Shown here piece by piece: positions 1 through 15,602 of a stretch of DNA of 21,426 nt. The stretch comes from a virus. The notes below the pieces were generated by a model. The model worked only from the letters and a program-made list of their open reading frames with translations. It ran no database searches and had not been told where the DNA came from. The translations under genes and the position numbers were made by a program. The DNA lies in the IMG/VR virus record IMGVR_UViG_3300022602_000219, positions 17,678-39,103 of that record; one strand, 5' to 3'. The stretch's first letter is position 1; every line of letters begins with the position of its first letter.

Positions 1-490
1 CATATTTTGCATAAACTGTGCCAGATATCCAATCATATCTATTAATCATCATAGATAAATTTGATGGTGTAATAATTTTACCAAAAATCATTTGTTCAAA
101 CAAATTATATTCTACGTTATTAACTGATTCATTTATTAATGCTGGAGATGATACTGCATAATATATGCTATTTGTAATTAAATTTGATGTTGCTGGTGTA
201 GTAAGAGTAATAAATGTACTATTGACAGTTAAGACAGTTCCTAATAATACAGCATCAGTCTGATACAGATAATATCCATTTGAAATATTTGAAGACACAT
301 CGACCGATGTTGCTACCAAATTATTTGCTGTATTACAAGTTACTGTTCCAGAAAGTTTGTTTAGTGCAAGACCTGAACCAGGAGTTGCCGCAAAAACGTA
401 ATATTGAGTATTCGCTATATCCTTAATAGGATTGTAATAATCAATAGAGGTTCTAACATTAAATAATTTTGTATTGCTGACTACAGTCAT
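1..490 (-). CDS. 8: Baseplate wedge protein, gp8-like (partial, C-terminus outside window)
   Basis: An open frame begins at the ATG at 490 and runs off the left edge, giving 163 residues. The start overlaps the stop of the upstream gp7-like gene (ATGA), so the two are probably translationally coupled; no good Shine-Dalgarno lies close by. The gp8 call rests on position (T4 order 25-6-7-8) and on the segment RYDWISGTVYAKY at about residues 151-163, which resembles the start of the conserved part of gp8 in T4-like phages (inference from memory). T4 gp8 is a wedge subunit that joins gp7 and gp10. Residues 47-100 carry a Ser/Thr-rich beta module beginning SGTVTCNTAN that also occurs inside the neighbouring gp7-like protein. 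The assignment is moderately sure; another wedge or fibre-attachment protein remains possible. Confidence 0.72.
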   Translation of the reverse strand, partial: MTVVSNTKLFNVRTSIDYYNPIKDIANTQYYVFAATPGSGLALNKLSGTVTCNTANNLVATSVDVSSNISNGYYLYQTDAVLLGTVLTVNSTFITLTTPATSNLITNSIYYAVSSPALINESVNNVEYNLFEQMIFGKIITPSNLSMMINRYDWISGTVYAKY

Positions 491-3447
491 GATATTGTAA
501 TACTAACCCCCGGTGTATTTAATGGTGCGTTTAATTCAGATTTAATAATTGCTTTACCAAATAATTCGGTTCCCGCAACGTGAACAAGTTTTTTTACCAT
601 ATCAGAATACTTGTTCAATGATAGTTTAGTTTGAATTTCGTAGGAATACTCTTGATAATATTGGTTGTCGTGAATATATTTATTAGAGTTTAATTGGCCG
701 TTTGTATTTTCCCAATATCCATTTGCAATACCCTGATGTTCTACACTAGCGGTACCAAAAATATCTTGAGCATTAGCATTTGTTACACCAGTAAGAACTA
801 GAGAAGCACCATTAGGATATCCATAACCAGAAGATAATACTTGTAATGTAGTAGCAATAGCATTAGCGGTAACCACATTGTCAGTAATTACAGCATTGAA
901 TCCCATCCAAGTATTACTTGTATAATCTGATGAAACTGTATTGATATAACCATTACCGAATCGAGTTCCTAGAGAATCTTGGCTATAGACTTGCGAATTA
1001 TTACTAAATGCATAATTAAATGATTGTCTACGCACAGAAATTGTATTGGAAGATACGCTTTTAATCAATCCTTTAGCTAGAACTGGTGAAGAGGTTGTTG
1101 TTACAGTATCTACAGTATCTGTAGTATGTGTAGATTGCCCAGTAATAGAATATGTAGTTAAGAATGTTCCAGATAATACTGTTATAGTCAATGTATTTGT
1201 GGTTTTTGCTGTTACAACACCCGTAGCTCCAGTAGTGGCTTGAATAATGCCTTCACCAACCTTAAATGATCCACCGCTATTTGTATGTAATATTAATAAT
1301 GTAGAAGATACTGTTGTTTGTTCAAAAATTGCTTGGCCAGGACTAAAATTAAAGTTTGTAGATGAAAGATCTAAAAATACATCTTTGTAATTATATGCAG
1401 CGGTATTTTTATCATAGATATATGTAAATGGTGCAGCATTATAATTGGAACCCGGATTAACTGCAGATAGAGATTGTATAGTTCCAATAATAGTTGTATT
1501 AGTTGTTAATGCATCTATAATAAGACCATTTAAATAACCAATTGTGCCATCTCCAGAAAATCCATATTCTGTGGTATTACAAGTACATTGATTTGATGTT
1601 AAATTAATAGAAGCATTAGATGATAGATATAAAATAGTATTACTTACAATAGTATTAATGATACCTACTGAAGAACCATTAGGTGCATTAAGCGTACTAC
1701 CAATGCCAAATCCTTGTTGTGTGTTTGTAAATTGAGTTCCAGAACCCGTAACAATAACATTTGCCGTATTGCAAGTAATTGTTCCGCTTGCTGTAGAAAA
1801 TCTTCTTGTTGGTTGTCCAGAATTGCTTCCACTAATTAGTAAGTCTAAAATTGCAATAGCAGAAGAATTGTTTCCAATAAGAACATCTGGTTGCGAGACA
1901 ATTGTTTCTTGGTTTATTAATGTACCAATATTAAATGTGGCTCCAGAACCAGTATTATAAACTGCTCCAGTATTGGCTGCTCCTGTTACAAAGGTGCGCC
2001 AAACAGTATTATTAGAAACATTATAATTTGAGTTAGATAAAAGGGTTAGATATGAGGAGTTTGTTACTGAATTTACTACTCCAATAAATCCATTATTTGC
2101 TCTAAAATATAAATTATCACCCGCATTTATTTGTGGATAAGTAAAATTAGCAGTATTTCCCATTACAATATTTGTATTTGTATTTGTAGTAACAAGCCCG
2201 ACTGGTTGACCAATATAAAATAGCAATGAAGCCTCTGGGTATAGTGTTCCAGAAATACTAGAAAGTCCCATAAATGCTACGTTTGCTCCAACAACTGTAG
2301 CATGAGCAGATACATTAGAATATGTATGAATAGTTGCATTTACTGCGTTGTTGCTAGTAACAACAATAGTTCCGTTTGCATTATTCCAGATACCACTTGT
2401 TGTACTAATAACTAAATTTCCTGTTGTATTACTAATAGGAAGAACGCCTACAACATATCCGGTAGCTACTGGAAGTGATAGGTTATTAGAATTATAGCCG
2501 GTTACAGGCAAAAGATTTGCAAATGATCCAACGTTTAAATTTTGATAGTATATACTTTGAAGCGGTTGTACAACAGACATAAGAGGAATAATTGTTCCTG
2601 TACTATTGGCATAACCAATTACTGCATTAGATATAAGAATTGAAGAGTTTGTCTCATAACCATATCCGCCATTAATTAAATTAAACGCAACTTTTCCGGT
2701 CCCAGAGATTGTGGCTCTTACAATAGCTTGTCCACCAAGACCTTCAGGCCCATAAATATTAAACAAGTCACCAATTTTATTGTTTGCACCACCTTCAGTA
2801 ATAATAATATTATTTAAAGACCCAGTTACTTGTGGAGCATCAATTAAACTATTTGTATTAGTGATATATTCATTGGTCTGGAATTCACCCACAATATTTG
2901 AAAGATAGACAACATCAATAAATCTACCATTAATATTTTTTCGAGTAATATTTTCTACGAAAGCAGTAGCTCCAGAAGTAGCACCAGTAATTTGAGTACC
3001 AATAAATTCTACGGTTCTATATGAAACAGTACATTCTAAGTATTGTGGAATACGCCATATGCCATCAGAAGGCTTGATAACATCTGTAAATGGATTATAT
3101 ACTTCAATATCATCTCCAAATACTAGACTGAATAGTAATTTGAAAGAATCTGTACTTCCTTTTGCCTTATATAAATCTTGAATGTGTTTTACAAGAGTTG
3201 ATTTTGATGCAGCAGTCTTTGCTGGAATACCTGTTAAATATTCTGCTTGAAATTTCGATACAAATTGATCTAAAGTAGTATCTATATCTCTATAAGATAG
3301 TATTTCTCTAGATTCTGAACCACCAGCATCTAAAAATTCATAATAAGCCTTAACAAATGCAACAAATTCTGGTCCATCCGAGTAATAAAACTCAGGAAAT
3401 TGGCTTTGAACTAGATTTGCAATATCTTTTTCAATATTTAATGCCAT
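487..3447 (-). CDS. 7: Baseplate wedge initiator, gp7-like
   Basis: This 986-residue protein lies between gp6 and a gp8-like gene, the place of gp7 in T4 (1032 residues), and has a similar length. The N-terminus (residues 1-110) has a conserved-looking helical domain with FPEFYYSDGPEFVAFVKAYY, as in wedge proteins of marine T4-like phages. Most of the rest is a long Ser/Thr/Asn/Gly-rich beta region with recurring modules of the form GT-x-F...G..L....G..IG.V.S.....L.L.SN. The C-terminus (about 930-986) is again ordinary and ends in SITIS. The ATG at 3447 sits 1 nt after the gp6 stop codon, with AAGAG 7 nt upstream as ribosome site. gp7 nucleates the wedge by binding gp10 and gp8, and later gp6, gp53 and gp25. 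The function is inferred from synteny more than from motifs. Confidence 0.78.
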   Translation of the reverse strand: MALNIEKDIANLVQSQFPEFYYSDGPEFVAFVKAYYEFLDAGGSESREILSYRDIDTTLDQFVSKFQAEYLTGIPAKTAASKSTLVKHIQDLYKAKGSTDSFKLLFSLVFGDDIEVYNPFTDVIKPSDGIWRIPQYLECTVSYRTVEFIGTQITGATSGATAFVENITRKNINGRFIDVVYLSNIVGEFQTNEYITNTNSLIDAPQVTGSLNNIIITEGGANNKIGDLFNIYGPEGLGGQAIVRATISGTGKVAFNLINGGYGYETNSSILISNAVIGYANSTGTIIPLMSVVQPLQSIYYQNLNVGSFANLLPVTGYNSNNLSLPVATGYVVGVLPISNTTGNLVISTTSGIWNNANGTIVVTSNNAVNATIHTYSNVSAHATVVGANVAFMGLSSISGTLYPEASLLFYIGQPVGLVTTNTNTNIVMGNTANFTYPQINAGDNLYFRANNGFIGVVNSVTNSSYLTLLSNSNYNVSNNTVWRTFVTGAANTGAVYNTGSGATFNIGTLINQETIVSQPDVLIGNNSSAIAILDLLISGSNSGQPTRRFSTASGTITCNTANVIVTGSGTQFTNTQQGFGIGSTLNAPNGSSVGIINTIVSNTILYLSSNASINLTSNQCTCNTTEYGFSGDGTIGYLNGLIIDALTTNTTIIGTIQSLSAVNPGSNYNAAPFTYIYDKNTAAYNYKDVFLDLSSTNFNFSPGQAIFEQTTVSSTLLILHTNSGGSFKVGEGIIQATTGATGVVTAKTTNTLTITVLSGTFLTTYSITGQSTHTTDTVDTVTTTSSPVLAKGLIKSVSSNTISVRRQSFNYAFSNNSQVYSQDSLGTRFGNGYINTVSSDYTSNTWMGFNAVITDNVVTANAIATTLQVLSSGYGYPNGASLVLTGVTNANAQDIFGTASVEHQGIANGYWENTNGQLNSNKYIHDNQYYQEYSYEIQTKLSLNKYSDMVKKLVHVAGTELFGKAIIKSELNAPLNTPGVSITIS

Positions 3448-3448
3448 G

Positions 3449-5206
3449 TTATGCTCTTACTGCGGTAACTGATACGTTGATATCGGCAGGATCGATTAAT
3501 AAAACTGTATTATTAATTGCAGCAAAATCCAAAATTGTTGGTTGTACATAAAGACTGATGTAATTTCCTACATAATCTGAAAGTGCTGGTAAAGATAAAT
3601 TAACTATTCCTGATGAATAATCAATTGTACCAATTGAGCTAAGTACCGTTGTTATATTTCCCCCGGACGAAACTGTAATAAGGTCTAAATAACCCAATCC
3701 ATTTTGATCCTGCAACATTGATGATATGTTGTTATAGGTCAGAAGTGAAGAGTACATAGTTTTTGGAACAATTGGATTGTTATAATTAATGGTATATAGT
3801 TCTGTAGTATTTAATGCAGGAACAATTCTTTTAATCATATTAGTTGTTAGGTTTGAACTTACAATTGATGTATCTGCGTTATCAATTGTTGCAGCCAACT
3901 TACTGTGTCTAAATGTAATATCAAAATTGTTTAGGCTTGCATTGTTATATCCATTGATAGCAGAAATCATTTCTGCTTTAATATCAGACGGACTTAATGC
4001 TGATATATTAATATTATATTCTGCTGTAGCAACAACTGAAACATAAAGATAATCTGGAGATACAATAACAGGATTCATTTCTACAGGCATTTTAGTTTTA
4101 ATGAATGATACTACGTCTGCAGCAATTACATTAGGAATTCCTACAAAACTACTAAAATCAATAGAGATGAATACTTTACCAAACTGAGGAGGATAAATCT
4201 TTTCTCCACCATATACGTTTAAAGCACGAATGTCTGGATAATGTGCCTTAAGAATAGTTTTATAATCTTCTGGAATAATAGCTCTATCTTGTGTTTGATA
4301 ATGGCGAGGTGCATTATACTTGATAGAAGAAATTGATTCAGAATTTGCACCACCAAATGCTGCTGTATTGCTAGTAACAGTTACGGTACTATATCCAGCA
4401 ATACTAGATGCTGGTGAAAAGTTAATCGCCTTAGTAGCATCTGATCCAGAAGCAACTCTATATGTTGCTTGAATTATATTACCGTTTAGTAGGGCCTTGC
4501 CGACATTTCCATCACCAAATACTAATTCATATTTTCCATTGTTTGTGGCTTGCACAAAGTAGATTGTTGATGTAGAATTATAACCAAGCATTGATGTTGC
4601 CTGTGCAAAATTCACAGTAGTTGTATCTGATTGAGAATTTTGAATTGTGACGGAGAGAGAGGATGTATCAATCTGTGAATTATTCAGAATGTAGTGTGGT
4701 TGGGTTACTGATGAATCTACTGTAAAGCTTTCTGTTACGTATACGCCTTCATAGATTGCCACATTGGCTGCTGAGTAATTATTGTGATCATATACTAGGA
4801 CGCTCTGATCTGTGGTAAAGGTATAGATGTTATTATCAAGACGAGCATTAAAAGCTGTTCCCTTTGGTACTACAATTACAGAGGGACTATCATTTGCTTG
4901 AATTGTAAAATCGATATAGGCTACTGCTGATGAGTATGATCTGGGAGTATAGTTAAGCTCTTTGGCTCGTGATACCACGGAATCCATAATCTGTGCAGAA
5001 TCCAAAAATGATTCAGAGATTGCCATATTGGTATAGAAGTTATTCATATAGGTATTATATGAAAGCAAATCAATCAGTACTGATAAATTTGAACCATCAA
5101 AATCGTAATCGGCAAATTGATTTTGAGATTTGAGAAAAGTCTTTAAATTATTTTTTATTGTATCGAAATCTAGAGAAGATACGACAAGAGCAGAATTTGA
5201 TGACAT
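3449..5206 (-). CDS. 6: Baseplate wedge subunit gp6 (baseplate J family)
   Basis: This 585-residue protein has the hallmark N-terminus of gp6: LDFDTIKNNLKTFLKSQ (about 12-28), then YDFDGSNLSVLIDLLSYNTY (about 34-53) and AKELNYTPRS (about 81-90). These are strongly conserved in T4-like phages, where gp6 forms the inner ring that ties neighbouring wedges together and transmits the dome-to-star change. T4 gp6 is somewhat longer (660). The centre carries a baseplate-J-like fold region ending in FGDGNVGKAL (about 231-240), typical of this family. The start ATG at 5206 overlaps the gp25 stop by one base (TAATG), with GGGG 7 nt upstream. It stands in the expected position directly after gp25. Confidence 0.92.
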   Translation of the reverse strand: MSSNSALVVSSLDFDTIKNNLKTFLKSQNQFADYDFDGSNLSVLIDLLSYNTYMNNFYTNMAISESFLDSAQIMDSVVSRAKELNYTPRSYSSAVAYIDFTIQANDSPSVIVVPKGTAFNARLDNNIYTFTTDQSVLVYDHNNYSAANVAIYEGVYVTESFTVDSSVTQPHYILNNSQIDTSSLSVTIQNSQSDTTTVNFAQATSMLGYNSTSTIYFVQATNNGKYELVFGDGNVGKALLNGNIIQATYRVASGSDATKAINFSPASSIAGYSTVTVTSNTAAFGGANSESISSIKYNAPRHYQTQDRAIIPEDYKTILKAHYPDIRALNVYGGEKIYPPQFGKVFISIDFSSFVGIPNVIAADVVSFIKTKMPVEMNPVIVSPDYLYVSVVATAEYNINISALSPSDIKAEMISAINGYNNASLNNFDITFRHSKLAATIDNADTSIVSSNLTTNMIKRIVPALNTTELYTINYNNPIVPKTMYSSLLTYNNISSMLQDQNGLGYLDLITVSSGGNITTVLSSIGTIDYSSGIVNLSLPALSDYVGNYISLYVQPTILDFAAINNTVLLIDPADINVSVTAVRA

Positions 5207-5616
5207 TAACGAACCCCGTTCAGTGCAACAGTAGCATTTACTGTAGTTGGCTGTAGACTATTTATGATAGAAAATGTAACTGATACGGCAATCTGATTAT
5301 TATCTGGAGCAACTGAAACAATTACATCCAAAATATTTGCTCTGGGTTCATAGTTATTGATTGCTGCGGTTACATCTTTTTTAATAAGCTGTAGTGTAAT
5401 AGGTGTAATAAGCTCAAATAGGTATGCTCGTATATTACATCCAAACATAGGCTGAAAAGGTCGCTCATAAAAATTTGTCTGTATGATATTCTTGATAGAA
5501 CGCTTAACGGCTTCCTCATTAGTAAAACGTGTTAAGTCTTTCTTAATGGGATGAACATTAAAGTTTGTGTTAAAATCAGAATATATGGTATTTGCTTGTA
5601 ATGCAGAAACAGACAA
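5206..5616 (-). CDS. 25: Baseplate wedge subunit gp25 (GPW/gp25 family)
   Basis: This 136-residue protein matches the length of T4 gp25 (132). It shows the family signatures: TNEEAVKRSIKNII (32-45), the ERPFQPMFG block (51-59) and the EPR core motif in NYEPR (88-92), followed by a C-terminal beta strand pair. gp25 lies in the wedge core bundle beside gp6 and gp53, and connects the baseplate to the first sheath ring. The start is a TTG at 5616: the codon is preceded by GGAG with a 7-nt gap, there is no upstream ATG in frame, and the N-terminus matches the family length. It is the first gene of the late operon, 35 nt below the TATAAATA element at 5651-5658. Confidence 0.93.
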   Translation of the reverse strand: MSVSALQANTIYSDFNTNFNVHPIKKDLTRFTNEEAVKRSIKNIIQTNFYERPFQPMFGCNIRAYLFELITPITLQLIKKDVTAAINNYEPRANILDVIVSVAPDNNQIAVSVTFSIINSLQPTTVNATVALNGVR

Positions 5617-5650
5617 TAAAGTTCTCCGATGAGAAAAGGAAATCTGTATT

Positions 5651-5658
5651 TATTTATA
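5651..5658 (-). promoter_or_regulatory. T4-type late promoter element upstream of gp25
   Basis: The minus strand reads TATAAATA, the exact consensus -10 element of T4 late promoters, which the phage sigma gp55 recognises with the sliding clamp. Transcription would start near 5640 and give a leader of about 24 nt containing the GGAG ribosome site of gp25. I found no other exact copy on this strand in the window, which fits the fact that this is the only late-type operon start here. The function is inferred; gp55, gp33 and gp45 genes are outside the window. Confidence 0.68.
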
Positions 5659-5674
5659 GTAAAACCCTGAGAGA

Positions 5675-5957
5675 GGGACCCGTGAAACGGATCAAAGGGA
5701 CCCGTAGAACGGATCAAAGGGACCCTATACTTTTCTGAAAGGGACCCGTAAGGGGACCCAATATAAGGTGGGGGGGGACCCTATACTTTTCTGAAAGGGA
5801 CCCGTATACGAAAAGGGGGGACCCTATACTTTTCTGAAAGGGACCCATAGAAAAAGGAAAAATGGAAAATTGAAATCCTATATTTTCCTGGGGGGGACCC
5901 ATAGAAAAAGGAAAAATGGAAAAACTAAACCGCTCGAAGCATCTCGTATGGGAACCC
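5675..5957. repeat. GGGACCC repeat array with nested longer direct repeats
   Basis: Ten exact copies of GGGACCC lie between 5675 and 5900 (starts 5675, 5697, 5719, 5741, 5753, 5775, 5797, 5818, 5840, 5894), and a degenerate GGGAACCC follows at 5950. The first three copies are 22 bp apart in two near-identical 22-bp units (5675-5696, 5697-5718). A 25-bp unit (CCC-TATACTTTTCTGAAA-GGGACCC) occurs three times: 5723-5747, 5779-5803 and 5822-5846. A 30-bp unit starting GGGACCCATAG occurs at 5840-5869 and 5894-5923. Runs of 6-8 G precede three copies. The heptamer is self-complementary apart from its centre, so neighbouring copies can pair. The open frames through the array are low-complexity and have no start context, so I treat the 5617-6046 gap as non-coding. 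Confidence 0.9.
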
Positions 5958-5992
5958 AATACAATATAGCCAAATAGAACTGTTTTTTTCGG

Positions 5993-6038
5993 AAGTATAG
6001 AGCAAGTCTAATCGCCAAACTAGACTTGCTCTATACTT
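5993..6038 (-). terminator. Perfect 18-bp inverted repeat after the 6047-6232 gene
   Basis: Bases 5993-6010 and 6021-6038 are perfect inverted repeats (AAGTATAGAGCAAGTCTA and its complement) with a 10-nt loop. It lies 8 nt after the stop codon of the 6047-6232 gene, so it would end that transcript as a strong hairpin. There is no U-tract after it on the minus strand (an A-run follows), so it is not a classical intrinsic terminator. It could be an RNA stabiliser, a processing site or a protein-binding palindrome. Its outer arm carries the box CTATACTT also found in the 5675-5957 array. Confidence 0.6.
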
Positions 6039-6046
6039 GACAGATA

Positions 6047-6232
6047 CTAGGCCGTTTGCTTCTCCATTTCATTAGCTAGAGTATTCATGACGACATGTAT
6101 TGCCGTCATTACATGAATAGGCGAATTCGACGCTTGCGCAATACTGTAGGCGTACTGCATAGCGTCTTTTAAAGTCTCGCGTTCGCTAAAGAAACCGTGG
6201 CGAATGCTTTGGGCGAGCGTCGTTTGTTGCAT
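6047..6232 (-). CDS. Small conserved phage protein (61 aa)
   Basis: This encodes a 61-residue, mainly helical protein with the central pattern LKDAMQYAYSIAQAS and the C-terminal pattern AIHVVMNTLANE. I recognise the pattern as one recurring in small proteins of many large phages, but no function is known to me. The start ATG at 6232 has AAAGG about 10 nt upstream. It follows the terminator hairpin at 6263-6290 that closes the previous gene, and its own end is followed by the 5993-6038 palindrome. It is the last gene before the early/late boundary. Confidence 0.75.
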   Translation of the reverse strand: MQQTTLAQSIRHGFFSERETLKDAMQYAYSIAQASNSPIHVMTAIHVVMNTLANEMEKQTA

Positions 6233-6262
6233 TTGCTTTGACCTTTTGTTGTATTGAAAAGA

Positions 6263-6290
6263 ACAGAGGCGGGGTTTAATCCGCCTCTGT
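6263..6290 (-). terminator. Intrinsic terminator after the 6302-6562 gene
   Basis: A perfect 10-bp stem (ACAGAGGCGG with its complement) encloses an 8-nt loop, and on the minus strand is followed by TTCTTTTC. It begins 11 nt after the stop codon at 6302. Strong GC-rich stem and a U-rich tail support termination, perhaps partial because the next gene starts only 24 nt past the tail. Confidence 0.75.
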
Positions 6291-6301
6291 ATTGCTTTCG
6301 A

Positions 6302-6562
6302 CTAGGCTTGCTCTTGTTCCTTTCGCGCCTTATCTTCCGCCTTGAATTGTTCAACTTGCTCTTTCGAGTAGATTTCACCGTTCAACACGCGCATTTCAAT
6401 ATTAGCCGGCTCGATTTCATAAGTAACCGTGCGATAGTCTTCGCCGCCGACATAGGTTGACTCGATGCGCTTCGCCTTGCCGAGTATTTCCATAACCTTG
6501 GCGGCATCGGCGATCGAGAGGGCGAAGGTAGCGCCGTAACCGATATTGAGAGAAGCGAACAT
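6302..6562 (-). CDS. Small conserved phage protein (86 aa)
   Basis: This 86-residue protein begins MFASLNIGYGATFALSIADA and has an alpha/beta N-terminal part with an AAKVMEILGKAKRIE helix (about 20-34). Its C-terminal tail is very charged (EQFKAEDKARKEQEQA). The N-terminal pattern resembles small phage proteins that I have seen without known function. The start at 6562 has AAAAGGAAC upstream at good spacing. It has its own promoter candidate (6704-6732), an unusually structured leader (6599-6706) and its own terminator (6263-6290), so it is a single-gene transcription unit that may be strongly expressed. Confidence 0.78.
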   Translation of the reverse strand: MFASLNIGYGATFALSIADAAKVMEILGKAKRIESTYVGGEDYRTVTYEIEPANIEMRVLNGEIYSKEQVEQFKAEDKARKEQEQA

Positions 6563-6598
6563 TTGTTTAGTTCCTTTTGATGTGATGTGAAGGATTAG

Positions 6599-6706
6599 GC
6601 GCGCAACGGAATGCCGCGCGCCTTGGTTAGGGGTTCACAATGTCAAAGATCGCCGGGGAGTCCGTCCCCGCCGGCCGGGGGCGAATCCCCCGGTGGCGAA
6701 GCCACC
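6599..6706 (-). promoter_or_regulatory. GC-rich, four-hairpin leader of the 6302-6562 gene
   Basis: Four hairpins lie in a row. 6692-6706: GGTGGC/GCCACC with a 3-nt loop. 6675-6693: a 7-bp CCGGGGG/CCCCCGG stem with loop ATTCG on the RNA strand. 6654-6670: a 6-bp stem closed on CGGAC. 6599-6623: GGCGCGC/GCGCGCC with an 11-nt loop. The segment is far richer in GC than its surroundings. It ends about 36 nt before the start codon, leaving the ribosome site free. It could stabilise the mRNA, act as a folded regulatory RNA, or be an inserted foreign repeat. Confidence 0.6.
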
Positions 6707-6732
6707 TTATCAATAACAATACTTGGTGTCAA
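6704..6732 (-). promoter_or_regulatory. Sigma70-like promoter for the 6302-6562 gene
   Basis: TTGACA (6727-6732), a 17-nt spacer, then TAAGGT (6704-6709). The flank GTTGACACC is shared with the promoters at 12180-12208 and 15756-15783. The -10 is weak and overlaps the first GC-rich hairpin. Confidence 0.5.
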
Positions 6733-6845
6733 CCCTTCAATACATGCTCCGAAAAATTATTTTTCTCTGCAATTTCAATGGGTTAGGGAACAATGGGGAA
6801 ATCGCGAAAATTTAACCTTAATCTGCTTTGCTCTATACAGTCTAG

Positions 6846-6926
6846 TTAGGTATAGGTCATATATAGGCAAGTAAGAACGATCAAAAAAATCGTCAATACT
6901 GCAAATTCAACAATCAAACGGGCCAT
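6846..6926 (-). CDS. Tiny single-TM protein (26 aa)
   Basis: A 27-codon frame encodes MARLIVEFAVLTIFLIVLTC followed by LYMTYT. Residues 4-22 form one hydrophobic helix, so the product would be a small inner-membrane peptide. The ATG at 6926 has GGAGC 8 nt upstream, which is a good ribosome site and the main reason I accept it. It follows the hairpin at 6948-6976, which ends the upstream gene. Candidate roles include modulating a host membrane protein or a toxin- or holin-like activity; none is shown by the sequence. Confidence 0.55.
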   Translation of the reverse strand: MARLIVEFAVLTIFLIVLTCLYMTYT

Positions 6927-6947
6927 TTGTATTTGCTCCAAAGTATA

Positions 6948-6976
6948 GAGGGGATTAGATCAAGTCTAATCCCCTC
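6948..6976 (-). terminator. Hairpin after the 6988-7224 gene
   Basis: A perfect 12-bp stem (GAGGGGATTAGA and its complement) with a 5-nt loop starts 11 nt after the stop codon of the 78-residue gene. The minus strand continues with TATACTTTGG, so there is no true U-tract. The same CTATACTT box follows the stem at 5993-6038, suggesting a shared element type rather than chance. Confidence 0.55.
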
Positions 6977-6987
6977 CGGTTCAAGTA

Positions 6988-7224
6988 TTAGGCGCTCTTA
7001 AGCATTGCCTTTAGTTCATCCTTCAGCGACTTTGCTTGTTCGCCGCGAAAGGTCGAAGCGTTGGAAAGGAAATAGAGAACAACAGACTTAGCAGAGTCGC
7101 AATAATAGTCATCTTGCATAGTATTCAGAGAAGACATTGCGTCAAGGTAAGGTTTAGCTGCAAAGTTAACCTTGGGCCAAGCCTTGCGGATATCCGAGGC
7201 GATAGTATAGAGAGGGCGATTCAT
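6988..7224 (-). CDS. Small conserved phage protein (78 aa)
   Basis: This 78-residue, mostly helical protein has the block AKPYLDAMSSLNTMQDDYY (about 23-41), then DSAKSVVLYFLSNAS (about 43-57) and a C-terminal amphipathic helix SLKDELKAMLKS. I recognise this as a widespread phage family without a known role. The start at 7224 has AAGGATC 5-8 nt upstream. It lies 10 nt below the end of the 33-residue gene at 7235 and belongs to the 7526-6988 cluster. Confidence 0.8.
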   Translation of the reverse strand: MNRPLYTIASDIRKAWPKVNFAAKPYLDAMSSLNTMQDDYYCDSAKSVVLYFLSNASTFRGEQAKSLKDELKAMLKSA

Positions 7225-7234
7225 CTTGTGATCC

Positions 7235-7336
7235 TTAAGCCGCTTTGGGAATAGGCGAGAGCACGTTGCGCTTGCCTAAGTACTCACGTAAGATAGCTTG
7301 TCTTTCAGCGCGTGTCAAGAGACTTTTTTGCTTCAT
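7235..7336 (-). CDS. Short basic protein (33 aa)
   Basis: A 34-codon frame begins with ATG at 7336, after AGGTG at 8 nt. The product is basic: MKQKSLLTRAERQAILREYL, then GKRNVLSPIPKAA. Residues 8-22 are likely one helix. A longer in-frame version reaching 7432 would overlap most of the upstream gene and begins with an unrelated-looking segment, so I prefer the short one. The gene sits 10 nt after the stop of the upstream 59-residue gene and 10 nt before the next start, as expected in a compact cluster. No function recognised. Confidence 0.6.
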   Translation of the reverse strand: MKQKSLLTRAERQAILREYLGKRNVLSPIPKAA

Positions 7337-7346
7337 TGCCGCACCT

Positions 7347-7526
7347 TTAATCAACCGCCATGTGTATAACGGGCTCACCATCCTTTTCAGCCAAAGCAAC
7401 CCATACCATATGCACCTTAGACTTAGGCGCATTTAGTAGCATGGTCGCAGCAATTTTGGCCGCATATAAACTACTCGCAGTTATTTCAACAGTTTTACCA
7501 TTATATCCCGCAATATAACCAAGCAT
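7347..7526 (-). CDS. Small conserved phage protein (59 aa)
   Basis: This 59-residue protein begins MLGYIAGYNGKTVEITASSL and contains YAAKIAATMLL and a C-terminal LAEKDGEPVIH. This YNGKTVEI...SLYAAK...DGEPV pattern recurs in many phages and is predicted to be a small alpha/beta fold, with no known role. I chose the ATG at 7526 rather than upstream ATGs because GGTGTGGATCA gives a usable ribosome site and the known relatives start with a similar residue. It opens the small operon 7526-6988. Confidence 0.75.
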   Translation of the reverse strand: MLGYIAGYNGKTVEITASSLYAAKIAATMLLNAPKSKVHMVWVALAEKDGEPVIHMAVD

Positions 7527-7578
7527 TGATCCACACCTTTCAAACAAAAAAAAGTATATCATGAAACGCATTTGTTTC

Positions 7579-7607
7579 TGATAGAAGAATTTCTATTTAA
7601 TTGTCAA
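7579..7607 (-). promoter_or_regulatory. Promoter candidate upstream of the 7347-7526 gene
   Basis: TTGACA (7602-7607) is followed after 17 nt by CTATCA (7579-7584), a poor -10. An alternative is the extended -10 TGATATACT further down (near 7554-7562), followed by a run of eight T. Either would give the 7526-6988 cluster its own start. Confidence 0.35.
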
Positions 7608-7681
7608 AGACCGCAGTTCTCTTTTGTTCTATTGTTCCTGTAGTGCCCTATCATGGCCTAGGATATACCTGCCGGGGAGCA

Positions 7682-7755
7682 CTAGATTAGTCTAGAATAT
7701 CCGCTTGGTCTAAGCTACTCCAAATTCCCGTAGGTTGGTAAGGCTTAGACCAAGC
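7682..7755 (-). other. Two palindromes in the gap after the 7777-8052 gene
   Basis: Bases 7703-7715 and 7743-7755 are perfect 13-bp inverted repeats (GCTTGGTCTAAGC) separated by 27 nt, and CTAGATTAGTCTAG at 7682-7695 is a shorter palindrome. They lie 21 nt and more after the stop codon at 7777. They may end the upstream transcript or bind a dimeric protein; no U-tract follows. The rest of the 7527-7776 gap holds only the promoter candidate and no convincing gene. Confidence 0.55.
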
Positions 7756-7776
7756 TTTAATTCTAATTCTATTTAG

Positions 7777-8052
7777 TTATTCTTCGATTTCATCATCTTC
7801 GTCTTGAATAGTATCGTCATCATCTTCCAGTTCATCATCAGACTTGTGATGGTCGGCGAGCTCATCCCAATCAATACATTCAAAATTGATCATATCATAG
7901 ATGAAACCGCCGCTTTCGCCGATCTTTTCTTCGACGTATTCAGCAACGACGTTCTGAATTTCAGCCGCAGACATATCCGTAAGGTAATCATCATCACCAA
8001 ACCAGATATTGACCAACCAAGTCTCGCGATTAGTCCAACCATTGTAAGACAT
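7777..8052 (-). CDS. Conserved phage protein with NGWTNRETWLVNIW motif (91 aa)
   Basis: This 91-residue protein opens MSYNGWTNRETWLVNIWFGD, a pattern shared by a large family of unknown function in phages, plasmids and bacteria. The middle is helical (AAEIQNVVAEYVEEKIGE, about 28-46). The last 25 residues are almost purely acidic (DDELEDDDDTIQDEDDEIEE), which is longer and more acidic than I expect for the family. The start at 8052 has AAGGAAC 6 nt upstream. It has its own promoter (8079-8107). The acidic tail could mimic nucleic acid or chelate metal, but that is speculation. Confidence 0.82.
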   Translation of the reverse strand: MSYNGWTNRETWLVNIWFGDDDYLTDMSAAEIQNVVAEYVEEKIGESGGFIYDMINFECIDWDELADHHKSDDELEDDDDTIQDEDDEIEE

Positions 8053-8078
8053 TTTGTGTTCCTTGCTTCGATTTATCT

Positions 8079-8107
8079 AAGGTATCAGAGGCGATTTAGT
8101 CTGTCAA
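8079..8107 (-). promoter_or_regulatory. Sigma70-like promoter for the 7777-8052 gene
   Basis: TTGACA (8102-8107), 17 nt, TACCTT (8079-8084). A run of seven T lies just upstream on the minus strand. Six nt below the -10 comes ATCGAAGC (8065-8072), a variant of the ATCGAAAC box found at the same place in other promoters here. Confidence 0.6.
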
Positions 8108-8115
8108 ACCTTTTT

Positions 8116-8301
8116 TTAATAAAAATTTTGAATTTCAGCCGCAACCCAAGAAAGAAAACCTTTGTGCTCGATTTCCACCGCCTGATTCGTATCGGGATTA
8201 TACATGATCCGATAATCTAAGCGAGAGATATCTTCCGCACGATAGAAAAAACCTTTGGAATAATAATAGGCCACAGCTTCAGCACCAGAGGCGAATTCCA
8301 T
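8116..8301 (-). CDS. Small hypothetical protein (61 aa)
   Basis: This 61-residue alpha/beta protein begins MEFASGAEAVAYYYSKGFFY and ends with LSWVAAEIQNFY. The GAEAVAYYYSKGF..AE..SR...R.M.NP..... pattern looks like a real small phage protein, but I do not recognise a named family. The start at 8301 is 34 nt below a well-formed promoter -10, with GGGAATAACGGAT before the ATG. The stop is directly followed by a T-rich stretch that leads into the -35 of the next promoter, so this is a one-gene unit. Confidence 0.72.
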   Translation of the reverse strand: MEFASGAEAVAYYYSKGFFYRAEDISRLDYRIMYNPDTNQAVEIEHKGFLSWVAAEIQNFY

Positions 8302-8335
8302 ATCCGTTATTCCCTAGCCGCGTTTCGATGTCCCC

Positions 8336-8364
8336 ATAATGGCCTATCAGCGTTTGCGTGTCAA
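8336..8364 (-). promoter_or_regulatory. Sigma70-like promoter for the 8116-8301 gene
   Basis: TTGACA (8359-8364), 17 nt, CATTAT (8336-8341), then six nt and the box ATCGAAAC (8322-8329). This is one of the best-formed members of the promoter family in the window. Confidence 0.68.
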
Positions 8365-8368
8365 TAAA

Positions 8369-8455
8369 TTATTTTTCCCCATAGAAATCAATCACATGCC
8401 TCATACAGAAGCCAAACCCATAATAAAGGGCATTCTTTTCTAAGTCTAAATACAT
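8369..8455 (-). CDS. Tiny hypothetical protein (28 aa)
   Basis: A 29-codon frame encodes MYLDLEKNALYYGFGFCMRH followed by VIDFYGEK. The residue mix (aromatics, one Cys, balanced charge) and codon use look protein-like. The ribosome site is weak (AAGTG directly upstream). Support comes from an extended -10 promoter at 8546-8554 that has no other downstream gene. The long leader (8456-8540) carries tandem repeats and a palindrome. No function recognised. Confidence 0.42.
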   Translation of the reverse strand: MYLDLEKNALYYGFGFCMRHVIDFYGEK

Positions 8456-8466
8456 CACTTTTCACT

Positions 8467-8522
8467 ATACACATTGGGTGTGTAGTACAGTTTTTTATTT
8501 CAGTGTGTATTCAGTGTGTATT
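8467..8522 (-). promoter_or_regulatory. Tandem 11-mers and palindrome in a leader (operator-like)
   Basis: CAGTGTGTATT occurs twice head to tail (8501-8511, 8512-8522). A palindrome TACACA-5 nt-TGTGTA lies at 8468-8484. All share the core TGTGTA. They fall between the extended -10 at 8546-8554 and the 28-residue gene. This spacing would suit binding sites for a repressor, or a small leader RNA. Confidence 0.45.
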
Positions 8523-8545
8523 GAGTCTTATGTTTACACTACTTT

Positions 8546-8554
8546 ATTATATCA
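8546..8554 (-). promoter_or_regulatory. Extended -10 promoter TGATATAAT
   Basis: The minus strand has an exact extended -10 (TG-n-TATAAT) 3 nt after the stop codon of the 8558-8881 gene. I see no matching -35. It would drive the leader and the 28-residue gene below it. Confidence 0.5.
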
Positions 8555-8557
8555 TTA

Positions 8558-8881
8558 TTAGTTCAATTGTTTATTCCAGGATTCGATTAGTTCACATTGA
8601 ATAGAACCGAAGTATTGTTTCACTTCATCCAGGGTTTTATTGATTCCATTGATATTGATTTCGTAACCATCAGCATTACGAGACTTATAGGCAGTAATGA
8701 TCTTATTCTGAATAGTAATAGAAAACCAATCATCATTAGATGAAATATTCGCTTCACCATAGACACTAGCATCGCCAGAGACTACAGCATTGCCATAGAC
8801 ATTAGCATTGCCATAGACCTTAGCATTGCCAGAGACATAAGCACTGCCATAGACCTTATTCTCGTTTTCAATATAAGCCAT
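8558..8881 (-). CDS. Hexapeptide-repeat beta-helix protein (107 aa)
   Basis: Residues 10-46 are six tandem hexapeptides of the type V-(Y/S)-G-(N/D)-A-x, which fold as coils of a left-handed parallel beta-helix. A second domain (47-107) opens ISSNDDWFS and contains SRNADGYEININGINKT and a C-terminal helix. The whole is a paralogue of the 9076-9561 product: the first residues MAYIEN and the ISSNDDWFS...SRNADGYE block are shared, but it has fewer coils. Such proteins are common in large phages and are often mislabelled as transferases; there are no catalytic residues I can see. Start at 8881 with AAGGAAC upstream. Confidence 0.82.
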   Translation of the reverse strand: MAYIENENKVYGSAYVSGNAKVYGNANVYGNAVVSGDASVYGEANISSNDDWFSITIQNKIITAYKSRNADGYEININGINKTLDEVKQYFGSIQCELIESWNKQLN

Positions 8882-8909
8882 TTGTGCGTTCCTTAGTTAT
8901 TTTAGTAGA

Positions 8910-9071
8910 TTATTGTTTGTTTTCATTAAAATATACTTTTAGTTCATCAGCGATTCTAATCGCTTCGTTTGATCTACTATAATAACCAAGTTCTTCGGCA
9001 TCTTCCTCAAGTCTATACAGTATTGCAATAGCTTGTTCCAGTAGATCATCAGGAATTCCTACTCGGTGCAT
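8910..9071 (-). CDS. Small helical protein between two hexapeptide-repeat genes (53 aa)
   Basis: A 54-codon frame begins MHRVGIPDDLLEQAIAILYR and continues with LEEDAEELGYYSRSNEAIRI and ADELKVYFNENKQ. It is helical and acidic. The ATG at 9071 lies 4 nt after the stop of the upstream gene, with AAGGATC about 9 nt before. It ends 28 nt above the next hexapeptide-repeat gene. The position between two paralogues suggests the three are cotranscribed. No named family recognised. Confidence 0.65.
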   Translation of the reverse strand: MHRVGIPDDLLEQAIAILYRLEEDAEELGYYSRSNEAIRIADELKVYFNENKQ

Positions 9072-9075
9072 TGTA

Positions 9076-9561
9076 TTAACGATCCTTAATAGCTTGTTCC
9101 AAAGCAGCCAATTCAGTCTTCAGGGCTTCAATCCTAATATCAATCTCAGACTTTGTAGGCTTAGACCACTTATCAATCGCATTCAATTGATTGGGCGTCA
9201 GATCATCAGCCACATCACCAATAGTGACCGCGAGACCATCAATATTCAGTTCATAACCATCAGCATTGCGAGAGCGATATCCAGTCAAAGTCTTACCACT
9301 ATAGATCAGGCTAAACCAATCATCATTAGATGAAATATTCGCTTCACCAGAGACAAAAGCATTGCCAGAGACATTAGCATTGCCAGAGACTACAGCATCG
9401 CCATAGACTAGAGCATCGCCATAGACATGAGCATCGCCATGGATCTTAGCATCGCCAAAGACATTAGCATTGCCAGAGACTACAGCATCGCCATAGACTA
9501 GAGCATCGCCATAGACATTAGCATTGCCAGAGACTTTGTTAGAATTTTCAATATAAGCCAT
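9076..9561 (-). CDS. Hexapeptide-repeat beta-helix protein (161 aa)
   Basis: Residues 10-76 are eleven V-(Y/S/F/H)-G-(N/D/E)-A-x hexapeptides, predicted to form a left-handed beta-helix. There follows a domain ISSNDDWFS...SRNADGYELNIDG (77-105) and a charged C-terminal helix (about 130-161) with coiled-coil potential. The DNA of the repeat region contains an exact 60-bp duplication, so the helix has lengthened by internal recombination. I chose the ATG at 9561 (MAYIEN, as in both paralogues) over an upstream TTG. The upstream gene stops 5 nt before. A role in oligomerisation or a surface interaction is possible; nothing points to an enzyme. Confidence 0.82.
   Translation of the reverse strand: MAYIENSNKVSGNANVYGDALVYGDAVVSGNANVFGDAKIHGDAHVYGDALVYGDAVVSGNANVSGNAFVSGEANISSNDDWFSLIYSGKTLTGYRSRNADGYELNIDGLAVTIGDVADDLTPNQLNAIDKWSKPTKSEIDIRIEALKTELAALEQAIKDR
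9369..9518. repeat. 60-bp direct repeat inside the hexapeptide-repeat gene
   Basis: Bases 9369-9428 and 9459-9518 are identical, offset by 90 bp (five 18-bp hexapeptide units). The basic period is 18 bp, one coil of the helix. Similar units occur at about 8754-8850 and 15418-15520. Confidence 0.88.
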
Positions 9562-9566
9562 AGCTA

Positions 9567-9749
9567 TCAATTTTCCTTAATATAGTTTTCGAGGTATTCA
9601 GCTACTCCGGGGACTCGCACAGACAGTATTTCGATAATACTATTCATATATCCATATGAATAGGCATATTGCCTTTCCCTATCATCAGGATATTGTTCCT
9701 TCGCGCCGCTATTTACAAAGTCTTCAAACCGTTCGCTAACGCTTTTCAT
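9567..9749 (-). CDS. Small conserved phage protein (60 aa)
   Basis: This 60-residue helical protein begins MKSVSERFEDFVNSGAKEQY and contains RERQYAYSYGYMNSIIEIL (about 24-42), a pattern I associate with small phage proteins of unknown role. The ATG at 9749 follows the GP88-like gene by a single base. It is followed by the 161-residue hexapeptide-repeat protein, and all belong to one unit starting at the promoter 10419-10447. No function recognised. Confidence 0.75.
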   Translation of the reverse strand: MKSVSERFEDFVNSGAKEQYPDDRERQYAYSYGYMNSIIEILSVRVPGVAEYLENYIKEN

Positions 9750-9750
9750 T

Positions 9751-10389
9751 TTATGCCGCAGCCTTCAATTGCTTAATCAGCTTCTTACTATGCGCCACAT
9801 ACGCAACAACGTCAACCGTTTTATCCCAACAAACGCGACAATCGCCGCATTTACCGTCCCGTTCATAAGCATCGCAAACGGCATTAGCTTGCGTGTCACT
9901 ATCAAAACTTGGCACTACGCAGGAACCATGTTCCGCGCTAAACATACCATCTACCGTAGGCGAAGAAAAGCGAACCGCCACATTAGGCAATTCTTTCATC
10001 ATATTCAGCCAAAAGCGAATTTTGGGGATATTGTAAGACTTAGTAGGGAGCCAATGCCTAACGTGCGGCGTTTGTTCCATCACATAGTAAATCTTTTCAG
10101 CCAAACCAGGATGATACACGTCGCCACTATCAAACCAACGAAAAAACTTTTCTTTGGCGATAGCAGCAACCATATCAGAAACCCAGTCTTCGCGTTTCCA
10201 ATCCTTGCGGTTTTCTTCGCGCGGCGCTTTGACATTAGGAAAAACATAGTTCCCTTGCGTGGCATAGCAGCCCGCACAAACCGGCAATAGCGTCTTAGTC
10301 GCCGGATCAATAGAGCCGGGACATGTTTCCCGCGCCTGTAATGACCACGACTTACCCGGCATTTTAGAAGCTTTAGAGAGGCGGATCAT
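9751..10389 (-). CDS. GP88-like cysteine-rich protein (212 aa)
   Basis: This 212-residue protein matches the gp88-type family first named in mycobacteriophages. Features seen: MIRLSKASKMPGKSWSLQA at the start, C23-P-G, C38-x2-C41-Y-A, FRWFDSGD (83-90), HWLPTKSY (112-119), RFSSPTVDG (140-148) and a C-terminal cluster C172, C181, C184, C187-W. Eight cysteines suggest one or more metal or iron-sulfur sites; the C-x2-C and C-x2-C-x2-C clusters are the likely ligands. The DSGD and TKS patterns are similar to radical-SAM-like folds, as far as I recall, but function is unknown. It is the first gene after the promoter at 10419-10447, with GGAAACACGGAT before the ATG. Confidence 0.85.
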   Translation of the reverse strand: MIRLSKASKMPGKSWSLQARETCPGSIDPATKTLLPVCAGCYATQGNYVFPNVKAPREENRKDWKREDWVSDMVAAIAKEKFFRWFDSGDVYHPGLAEKIYYVMEQTPHVRHWLPTKSYNIPKIRFWLNMMKELPNVAVRFSSPTVDGMFSAEHGSCVVPSFDSDTQANAVCDAYERDGKCGDCRVCWDKTVDVVAYVAHSKKLIKQLKAAA

Positions 10390-10418
10390 ATCCGTGTTTC
10401 CCGTGTTTCGATGGACTA

Positions 10419-10447
10419 ACTATGCACTAGCTAAAACACTATGTCAA
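10419..10447 (-). promoter_or_regulatory. Sigma70-like promoter for the GP88-like operon
   Basis: TTGACA (10442-10447), 17 nt, CATAGT (10419-10424), then six nt and ATCGAAAC (10405-10412). It starts directly after the terminator at 10458-10491, a back-to-back terminator/promoter layout. Confidence 0.62.
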
Positions 10448-10450
10448 ACG

Positions 10451-10491
10451 AAAAAATGCCCATATGTGAAAAAAATCTCTCACATATGGGC
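10451..10491 (-). terminator. Intrinsic terminator after the 10510-10896 gene
   Basis: A perfect 12-bp stem GCCCATATGTGA (10480-10491 with 10458-10469) has a 10-nt loop and is followed on the minus strand by A and six T. It lies 18 nt after the stop codon at 10510. Confidence 0.85.
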
Positions 10492-10509
10492 TAAAGTATT
10501 TGTGGAGTA

Positions 10510-10896
10510 TTATCGGTCCTCGAAGGAAAGGTTATTCAGTACAGACATCTTAAGATGATGATTTCGAGCAACTTTCTTAAGTGCATCCTTCATATCTTCA
10601 GTGGATAACCAAGAATACTCATCATCATGAATAGTCTGAAGCTGAGAAAGCATGTCTTGATTTCGAGCAAAATACTTAGGAATAGTATACCCATAATCAG
10701 ATTGAAATGCTAAAAGAGTCACAACATCCGTATTTTCCATCTTAGAAGAATACATATCATCAGGAATAAGACAACCGACAGCACACTTAAGACCGTCATT
10801 GGTCTTATACGCACATTGCTCATCGATAGTAATTGCTCGTCTACCTTGAGTAAACAGATGAGTCGCTACAGTATCAAAGATTTCTTGAGCGCGCAT
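10510..10896 (-). CDS. Conserved phage/bacterial hypothetical protein (128 aa)
   Basis: This 128-residue protein begins MRAQEIFDTVATHLFTQGRR and has the conserved centre GLKCAVGCLIPDDMY (about 34-48), then a helical C-terminal half ending HHLKMSVLNNLSFEDR. The CAVGCLIPD.MY block recurs in many phages and some bacteria with no assigned role. Cys at about 38 and 42 are part of that block. The start overlaps the upstream stop by one base (TAATG). It is the last gene of the unit 11772-10510 and is followed by a strong terminator. Confidence 0.82.
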   Translation of the reverse strand: MRAQEIFDTVATHLFTQGRRAITIDEQCAYKTNDGLKCAVGCLIPDDMYSSKMENTDVVTLLAFQSDYGYTIPKYFARNQDMLSQLQTIHDDEYSWLSTEDMKDALKKVARNHHLKMSVLNNLSFEDR

Positions 10897-11162
10897 TAGT
10901 ATTCTCCATAAACCTTGCTAAAGATATAGTCAACCATTTGATAACCTTCACTATACGCCGCGCCATAATCAGCATAGCTGAACAGAAGATTTTCAATTTC
11001 CTTCCAATTTACATCAGCCTTACTAGGCCAATTAGACATAAGCTCAGCCATACCAGCATTCAATTCATCAGCCGCACGATCACGACCATCAATATTATAC
11101 AATTGCCAATCATCAGCACTATAGCTAATCTTGATATTACTAATCTTAGTAAAGGCAATCAT
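10896..11162 (-). CDS. Hypothetical protein (88 aa)
   Basis: This 88-residue acidic protein begins MIAFTKISNIKISYSADDWQ and has YNIDGRDRAADELNAGMAEL (about 22-41) and a C-terminal YSEGYQMVDYIFSKVYGEY rich in aromatics. It looks like a compact alpha/beta protein of a phage-only family; I do not recognise a name. The ATG at 11162 is 2 nt after the upstream stop; AAGGAAT at 6 nt is the ribosome site. It overlaps the next gene by one base. Confidence 0.78.
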   Translation of the reverse strand: MIAFTKISNIKISYSADDWQLYNIDGRDRAADELNAGMAELMSNWPSKADVNWKEIENLLFSYADYGAAYSEGYQMVDYIFSKVYGEY

Positions 11163-14090: not shown

Positions 14091-14921
14091 TCAGTCGGGC
14101 TTTACCATCATCATAGTATTGCTACCAGTCACAGTGGTTGGAAGAACGCCATTCCACTTGGAAATCCACTCTTGTTGCAGCACTTGGGGGTTAGCGTGCA
14201 GTGCTTCACCCTTGATACGAGTAGCATCAGCTTCACCACGAGCCTTAGCAACAGCAGCATCAGCACGATTCTTTTCAACTTGTACTTGGCGCTCAGCAAC
14301 TTGTGCTTCCTGGTCAGCCTTGGTCTTGTTCTCAATTGCTTGAGTTACAGCAGCAGGGAAACGAATAGACCCGATCCACTGTAGATCAGAGATTTCAATA
14401 CCAGAACCAGCAAAGTGTTGTTGAACGTCCTTCAGAGCATTAGTAATGACTTGTTGACGAGCAGCAGTATAAAGTTGATCTGAAGTCAGCTTGGAAGCTT
14501 CCAGAGCAATAGAAGTACGAACATATGCACGCACAGGACCATCACGCAGAGCATCAAAGTCAAGCTTATACTTGGTATAGATTTCTGCAACCTTGGAAGG
14601 ATCGACGTGCATAGTAACAGATACATCAGCAGTCAGAGGCAGACCAGTAGAGTCATTGAAAGCAAACTCTTCATTTGCGTTCTTGTTATCACCATCCCCA
14701 GGCTTAGTCCACTGATAAGTACGAGTGATAGCAGGGTATTCGATGATATACTCATTAGGACCAGTAAAGTGATACCCAACAGCAAGCGGTTGTGGTTGAA
14801 CACCAGCACCTTCACCAACAGTCTTAACTAGAAAGCCAACATTACCTACTTGTACATTAGGACCACAAGCAGTAAGCAGCATAGCAGCAGAGACAGACAG
14901 AATTACATTACGAAGTTGCAT
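14091..14921 (-). CDS. SPFH/band-7 (prohibitin-like) lipoprotein
   Basis: This 276-residue protein has a lipoprotein signal (residues 1-18) with lipobox L-T-A-C19 and Gly at +2, which predicts outer-membrane sorting. An SPFH core follows: VGFLVKTVGEG (28-38), a beta-rich middle (SVTMHVDPSKVAEIY), RAYVRTSIALEASKLTSDQL and GIEISDLQW. The C-terminal part (about 195-240) is an Ala/Glu/Lys coiled coil, QAIENKTKADQEAQVAERQV onward. Bacterial SPFH proteins such as HflK/HflC form ring cages on membranes and guard proteases. This one would stand in the periplasm on a lipid anchor. AAGGATC lies 11 nt before the ATG. Its neighbour upstream is a two-TM protein 3 nt away. Confidence 0.87.
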   Translation of the reverse strand: MQLRNVILSVSAAMLLTACGPNVQVGNVGFLVKTVGEGAGVQPQPLAVGYHFTGPNEYIIEYPAITRTYQWTKPGDGDNKNANEEFAFNDSTGLPLTADVSVTMHVDPSKVAEIYTKYKLDFDALRDGPVRAYVRTSIALEASKLTSDQLYTAARQQVITNALKDVQQHFAGSGIEISDLQWIGSIRFPAAVTQAIENKTKADQEAQVAERQVQVEKNRADAAVAKARGEADATRIKGEALHANPQVLQQEWISKWNGVLPTTVTGSNTMMMVKPD

Positions 14922-15149: not shown

Positions 15150-15357
15150 AAAATCCTTCAATAGGCCATACACGATTGATGGCGCGTTCATATGAGTATT
15201 TGATATTTTTTTCAGCTTTAGTATTCATATATTCACAATAAGCCTTAGCTTGATGTTCATGAAACATGACTGAATTTAGAGTACAATCACCATTATTATA
15301 GTCACTAACATATACAACATATGAGTATGAAGTATGATCGTTAATGTTTGTAGACAT
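15139..15357 (-). CDS. Hypothetical protein (72 aa)
   Basis: This 72-residue protein begins MSTNINDHTSYSYVVYVSDY, has a strand-helix pattern with MFHEHQAKAYCEYMNTKAEK (about 31-50) and ends IEGFYGE. It looks like a small soluble alpha/beta phage protein. The ATG at 15357 overlaps the upstream stop by one base (TGATG), with AGGAG 7 nt before. It overlaps the two-TM gene by 11 nt. No family recognised. Confidence 0.75.
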   Translation of the reverse strand: MSTNINDHTSYSYVVYVSDYNNGDCTLNSVMFHEHQAKAYCEYMNTKAEKNIKYSYERAINRVWPIEGFYGE

Positions 15358-15542
15358 CACATTACTCCTGAATCATCAAAAGAGAATAGTTGGGGAGCAT
15401 CAAAGACTGTACCGCGAGCAAAGACTACAGCATTGCCAGAGACTACAGCATCGCCAAAGACATTAGCATTGTCAGAGACATTAGCATGGCCAGAGACATA
15501 AGCATTGCCATAGACATTCATAGGGTTTTCGATAAAAGCCAT
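15357..15542 (-). CDS. Short hexapeptide-repeat protein, third paralogue (61 aa)
   Basis: This 61-residue protein starts MAFIENPMNVYGNAYVSGHA and holds about six hexapeptide coils (10-46), the last ones degenerate (FARGTVFDAPQL). It lacks the ISSNDDWFS domain of the two paralogues at 8558-8881 and 9076-9561, so it may be a truncated copy or a cap-like version. The ATG at 15542 matches the paralogue start (MAxIEN) and has AAGGAAAC upstream. It is the first gene after the promoter at 15575-15602 and opens the SPFH operon. Confidence 0.75.
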   Translation of the reverse strand: MAFIENPMNVYGNAYVSGHANVSDNANVFGDAVVSGNAVVFARGTVFDAPQLFSFDDSGVM

Positions 15543-15574
15543 GTTCGTTTCCTTGTTTCCGATTTTGTAAGACC

Positions 15575-15602
15575 ATTTTATCAGGCCTCGAATTAATGTC
15601 AA
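15575..15602 (-). promoter_or_regulatory. Sigma70-like promoter of the SPFH operon
   Basis: TTGACA (15597-15602), 16 nt, TAAAAT (15575-15580). The -35 overlaps the stop codon of the upstream 43-residue gene. The start region includes ATCGGAAAC, similar to the shared box. Confidence 0.65.

Follow-up and report, generated by a model that had tools for sequence, protein, structure and literature searches.

What is the role of a dense array of short repeats, all in one orientation, at the boundary between the accessory and late genes of a phage? The question was raised by a window of 21,426 nucleotides (positions 17,678 to 39,103 of IMG/VR record IMGVR_UViG_3300022602_000219), for which the first-pass annotation had described ten GGGACCC heptamers with nested 22-, 25- and 30-bp direct repeats, lying between the last accessory gene and the late promoter of a baseplate operon. 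Counting confirmed ten exact copies, all on the + strand (array at 5674..5900), starting at 5675, 5697, 5719, 5741, 5753, 5775, 5797, 5818, 5840 and 5894. The steps between them are 22, 22, 22, 12, 22, 22, 21, 22 and 54 bp, giving a period that is mostly 22 bp. Only 0.53 copies are expected in the whole window, and none of 100 dinucleotide shuffles reached 10; a scan of the whole window revealed no GGGACCC on the - strand or outside the array. The nested repeats are also present, as 22-bp units at 5674/5696, a 25-bp unit CCCTATACTTTTCTGAAAGGGACCC in three + strand copies (5723..5846; starts 5723, 5779 and 5822) and a 30-bp unit GGGACCCATAGAAAAAGGAAAAATGGAAAA in two (5840..5923, +; starts 5840 and 5894). 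The sequence CCTATACTTTTCTGAAAGGGACCC occurs three times, at 5724, 5780 and 5823, with one further degenerate copy, and a degenerate heptamer copy GGGAACCC forms the outer edge of the array (5950..5957, +). On the strand that codes for the late genes behind the array, the word reads GGGTCCC. An 81-aa open reading frame on the - strand (5714-5959) was rejected as an artefact of the repeat, and no plausible coding sequence covers the array. At 5993-6038 lies a perfect inverted repeat of 18 bp whose loop is 10 nt long; it lacks a T-run and has AAGTATAG in common with the array spacer.

The heptamer is not dense elsewhere in the genome. The 39,103-bp record contains 10 copies, all within the array, and a longer record of this virus (99,158 bp) contains 11, namely the same 10 and a solitary one 31 kb from them. 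Three IMG/VR records, possibly samples of one population, carry the array without any difference, and the length variation by G-run slippage suggested earlier was not seen among them; the 99-kb record contains a single G/C run of 8, which is in the array, and two of 7, one of which is. Each copy does form an AvaII/PpuMI site, as had been pointed out, but this is uninformative, since GGWCC occurs outside the array at the expected frequency (70 observed versus 68 expected). Selection on restriction sites or their modification (GGWCC or GGGWCCC) was therefore rejected, as there is no GGWCC bias and a GGWCC enzyme would be indifferent to the central base, whose orientation is strict here.

The surroundings of the array are those of a T4-type late promoter module. 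The late promoter element TATAAATA (5651..5658, -) lies 16 bp from the proximal heptamer and ahead of gp25, a baseplate wedge gene (5206..5616, -; Pfam PF04965, E=3.5e-15) that is the first late-operon gene behind the array, and a gp6-like baseplate wedge gene follows (3449..5206, -; Pfam PF21379/PF21871). The placement between accessory genes and the baseplate-operon late promoter is thus borne out. A terminator-like hairpin, found by a consensus scan only and with no strand assigned, ends the neighboring accessory genes (6263..6290). Judged by its gene content (gp25, gp6, a T4-type gp16 assigned to phrog_445, terminase and T4 portal), the virus is T4-like. Its terminase and portal genes lie at 64-72 kb of the 99-kb record, and the array is about 40 kb before gp17. 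The terminase and ribonucleotide reductase genes look split by inteins or homing-endonuclease-like insertions (L050:3648-7835, L051). Within the window, three paralogous open reading frames (8558-8881, 9076-9570 and 15357-15602) have 18-bp/hexapeptide repeats (V-GNA-V-GDA) that likely form a left-handed beta-helix, and 14091-14921 encodes a protein that has a Band 7/SPFH domain and begins like a lipoprotein.

No deposited phage has megablast-level DNA similarity to this virus. The highest gp6 identity in the phage collection is to Caulobacter phage Cr30 (43%), whose whole genome contains no GGGACCC pairs. T4-like relatives sampled at 54-60% gp6 identity have no array at this locus and carry a gp5-like peptidase gene or a permuted tmRNA instead. 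The latter, of the alphaproteobacterial type (Rfam RF04321/RF01849), is antisense and just upstream of gp25, where the present virus has its accessory island and array; it was located at L005:2642-2954 (-), L006:3781-4108 (-) and L011:6-318 (-), occurs also in L045 and L046, and is partial in L004 and L008. The first-pass annotation would have counted it against its proposal if all close relatives of like gene order lacked the array; this holds for the relatives sampled, yet the array class recurs in unrelated phages.

To place the array in a wider context, IMG/VR was scanned for three GGGACCC copies within short gaps, with CCCAGGG, a heptamer of equal composition and equally near-palindromic, as the control; the figures that follow are those among the matches listed. 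Many unrelated phage contigs carry GGGACCC arrays. Among the viral matches listed, 55 of 126 GGGACCC clusters were non-coding, versus 16 of 141 for CCCAGGG (Fisher 1.6e-9). Copies within one array nearly always agree in the orientation of the central base, which implies a strand-sensitive reader. Most of the records scanned in full have their paired copies at a single locus, and two loci are seen in Lacusarx, RXM and the record of L130. The class therefore shows the one array per genome, or two at its ends, expected of pac or cos sites; the exceptions are the Brevundimonas jumbo phages Gurke, Kikimora and Domovoi, which have 2-3 arrays each, 10-20 kb apart and not all at proven ends. The class was not seen in bacterial genomes, where 12 of 122 clusters were non-coding and mostly perfect tandem repeats. 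A bacterial host repeat element was accordingly rejected, the matches in actinobacteria and other bacteria being mostly coding or simple tandem repeats. A search of the open literature found the motif nowhere described, which argues only weakly for its novelty.

The heptamers are selectively conserved while their flanks diverge. Between CcrRogue and phiCbK, 42 of 42 heptamer columns are identical versus 74% of the flanks (p=1.6e-5); phiCbK was taken by accession and not by motif, whereas pairs ascertained by the motif are biased towards agreement. The motif-ascertained figures are 42 of 42 versus 71% for L052/L079 and 21 of 21 versus 51% for L102/L097, and L121/L098 showed no difference between heptamers and flanks. 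A strict helical-phasing rule was rejected because, although the array here is coherent at 11 bp, others have periods of 18, 24-25 or 36 bp. The case for a strand-specific RNA was not made either, because the folding energies of the two strands are similar (-88.6 and -93.0), and Rfam gave no match in the window.

The genes next to the arrays point to packaging. Among the matches listed, about 24 of the 43 large open reading frames within 3 kb of non-coding arrays were assigned with PHROG to the large terminase (TerL), versus about 11 of 71 for the controls (p=8.6e-6), counts that were taken from family tallies in which a few members may have been counted twice; because several of the array phages are related, we also give the value with one genus collapsed (p=1.1e-3). 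In L083, L119, L132, L152 and L163 the array separates terS from terL, and some other arrays adjoin amidoligase or virion-structural genes instead. A strict rule for array orientation relative to terL was dropped because L104 breaks it. Among records fetched by TerL similarity alone, an array is present in Gurke, Kikimora, Domovoi, BL47, C1 and RXM; no array was found in DSS3P8, RcXuper, MD18, CRP-902, Pkon1 and MW202675, the first three being CbK-like relatives without an array at terL. The small terminase (TerS) families of the carriers are unrelated (T4-type phrog_445 here, phrog_1482 in others), which leaves the shared recognition word unexplained. Terminase proximity is thus enriched for the class, and the virus studied here, with its 40-kb distance, departs from it.

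The evidence is strongest in cultured CbK-like phages: where their termini are mapped or annotated, the array class adjoins the genome ends. The arrays lie 844-970 bp from the left record end in CcrRogue, 853-980 bp in phiCbK and 355-481 bp in Colossus; this end rests on experiment in phiCbK and on coverage in CcrRogue and Colossus (PMC3556154), a paper whose text does not contain GGGACC. Arrays of C1 and BL47 are 1.1-1.2 kb into the annotated repeat. The direct terminal repeat (DTR) of RXM spans 1-10,992 (PMC8953757), and one RXM array (10148-10232) is inside its terL-side end while the other (103993-104070) lies 136-213 bp beyond the other end. Lacusarx has two arrays 10.4 kb apart that span the record start, to be compared with a double-coverage region of 10.5 kb. 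In phiCbK, CcrRogue and C1, a single GGGACCC stands exactly 44 bp before the cut that forms the right terminus; the terminus sequences of phiCbK and CcrRogue are homologous, and that of C1 is not closely similar to them. Like the virus studied here, phiCbK-like phages with long direct terminal repeats carry GGGACCC arrays, theirs having a period of 23-25 bp and a place just within the left terminus. The difference is that those phages are siphoviruses with fixed ends, whereas the virus here is a T4-like myovirus, presumably with headful packaging.

A search for two GGGTCCC copies paired with TATAAATA matched this virus, L439/L440, L319 and L441. L439/L440 (fuller records L442/L443) have a T4 portal and terminase and a gap of 21 bp between array and TATAAATA; the array in the record of L439 is oriented towards gp17, which it precedes by 37 kb. 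L319 has gp59 and gp32 and a gap of 17 bp, and had already been found by a search that did not require TATAAATA. An array of like orientation thus precedes TATAAATA by 17-21 bp in at least two other T4-like lineages. With the central base of the heptamer flipped, the search matched one contig, not T4-like in appearance. L441/L444 was dropped as a parallel since its record has no T4 portal or terminase match, and it is further weakened by a relative, L445, that lacks TATAAATA at that spot.

Several explanations were weighed against these data. The array may be a transcription element, a set of operators through which a phage or host protein represses, activates or road-blocks at one late promoter and so shields the late operon from accessory-gene read-through; we regard this as a serious but rather improbable alternative. 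Such a role fits the position between accessory genes and late promoter, the proximal heptamer 16-21 bp upstream of TATAAATA in T4-like phages, and the frequent occurrence of arrays ahead of late operons; L319 also has one copy just downstream of TATAAATA, the heptamers of L083 abut a -35 TTGACA and a -10 TATGAT, and the T4-like cases would be explained equally well by an operator or boundary element specific to one promoter. An array for a general late activator, one of four roles suggested in the first-pass annotation, is unlikely because the motif adjoins only 1 of the 17 TATAAATA sites in the 99-kb record; a packaging signal, another of the four, is favored by the comparative evidence. Further points against a transcription element are that the gene downstream of the array differs among T4-like phages, and that the motif in CbK-like phages is found at DNA cut sites and faces the other way with respect to the genes that follow it. 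Mycobacteriophage stoperators and start-associated repeats are single sites dispersed across the genome. They resemble the present motif in being asymmetric, near-palindromic words with one orientation relative to transcription, but GGGACCC clusters are confined to one or a few loci, and such single-locus occurrence is unlike dispersed operators.

Iterons for replication initiation or partition, serving as an origin or in episome maintenance, are in our view improbable. Tandem spacing near two helical turns does resemble iterons, and a parS-like TGTTTCACGTGAAACA is found within or beside the arrays of the terS-terL phages L098, L132 and L152 and, in degenerate form, in L052. CbK-like phages, moreover, persist as episomes and have been proposed to carry a host-recognized origin (PMC12195562). 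Against this, no initiator gene adjoins the array and no GC- or AT-skew switch is confined to it, the GC sign change near 25 kb of the 99-kb record being one that also occurs elsewhere; nor would an origin lead one to expect a GGGACCC 44 bp from a terminase cut or a terminal repeat with an array at each end. Neutral or selfish expansion of a tandem repeat without function in this phage appears very improbable. Recently duplicated internal units, G-runs that favor slippage and close relatives without an array agree with it, but the same one-orientation heptamer is found in unrelated phages and kept while flanks diverge, and its position is constrained relative to the late promoter.

By contrast with these rivals, a role in packaging draws on the same word being clustered beside packaging genes and at mapped ends of unrelated phages, and the array would for this reason probably mark a packaging start. 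That the array is the preferred, pac-like packaging-initiation site of this T4-like phage is the reading we favor most, as an evenly balanced proposition judged from sequence comparison. In T4, gp17 binds gp55, and concatemers are packaged about 100-fold less well by extracts that lack gp55 (PMC3012670; also PMC9026906). This coupling, together with an array set against a gp55 promoter as a natural loading place, led us to propose the array in the window as a packaging start. At a late stage of infection gp55, the late sigma factor, would open TATAAATA together with the sliding clamp, and terminase (gp16/gp17) or its loading factor would bind the adjacent repeated heptamers, whose common orientation would set the direction. 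The bound terminase would be delivered onto the concatemer, and headful packaging would then begin near the array. Binding of terminase or a loader at the array, and a packaging start there, are thus putative steps in this phage.

Small terminases bind pac and cos sites that are built as arrays, such as the lambda cosB R sites, SPP1 pac and P1 pac. GGGACCC arrays are like these in comprising oriented, short repeated words within a few hundred bp, at one locus per genome, near terminase genes or ends. They differ in that one heptamer is common to phages with unrelated TerS families, and in that T4-like phages have the array next to a late promoter, a long way from terminase. A strict pac is absent from T4 itself, which has a preferred gp16 site within gene 16 (PMC3012670). 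The phage here shares with T4 the T4-type gp16 and gp17, terminase loading in T4 being tied to the late-promoter sigma factor, whereas its candidate site is a discrete intergenic array at the gp25 promoter and not a region inside gene 16. Several observations count against the packaging role: the array is far from gp17 here whereas elsewhere it is usually beside terminase, Cr30 and the sampled close relatives lack it, the word is shared despite unrelated TerS, T4 does without a strict pac, some CbK-like relatives have no array at terL, the Brevundimonas jumbo phages have more than one array, and some arrays adjoin amidoligase or virion-structural genes.

More tentatively, and with more doubt than conviction, we suggest that GGGACCC is a packaging word that crosses phage families, an oriented heptamer common to CbK-like, terS-terL and T4-like phages, read by a common factor that marks the terminase start or cut, and placed at a late promoter in T4-like phages. 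The putative reader would, in the same tentative view, be a host-encoded or conserved loading protein, the phages being probably mostly those of alphaproteobacteria. How terminase selects its start point on concatemers has been worked out in only a few phages, and those of the T4 type are generally said to have no strict pac. A word that recurs at the ends of CbK-like phages and beside other terminases would allow termini to be predicted from sequence, and it raises the sharp question of which protein reads the same heptamer where small terminases are unrelated. If the word does cross families, the T4-like array at a late promoter would couple the start of packaging to late transcription, and late-promoter-coupled packaging of the T4 type would become directly testable by end mapping.
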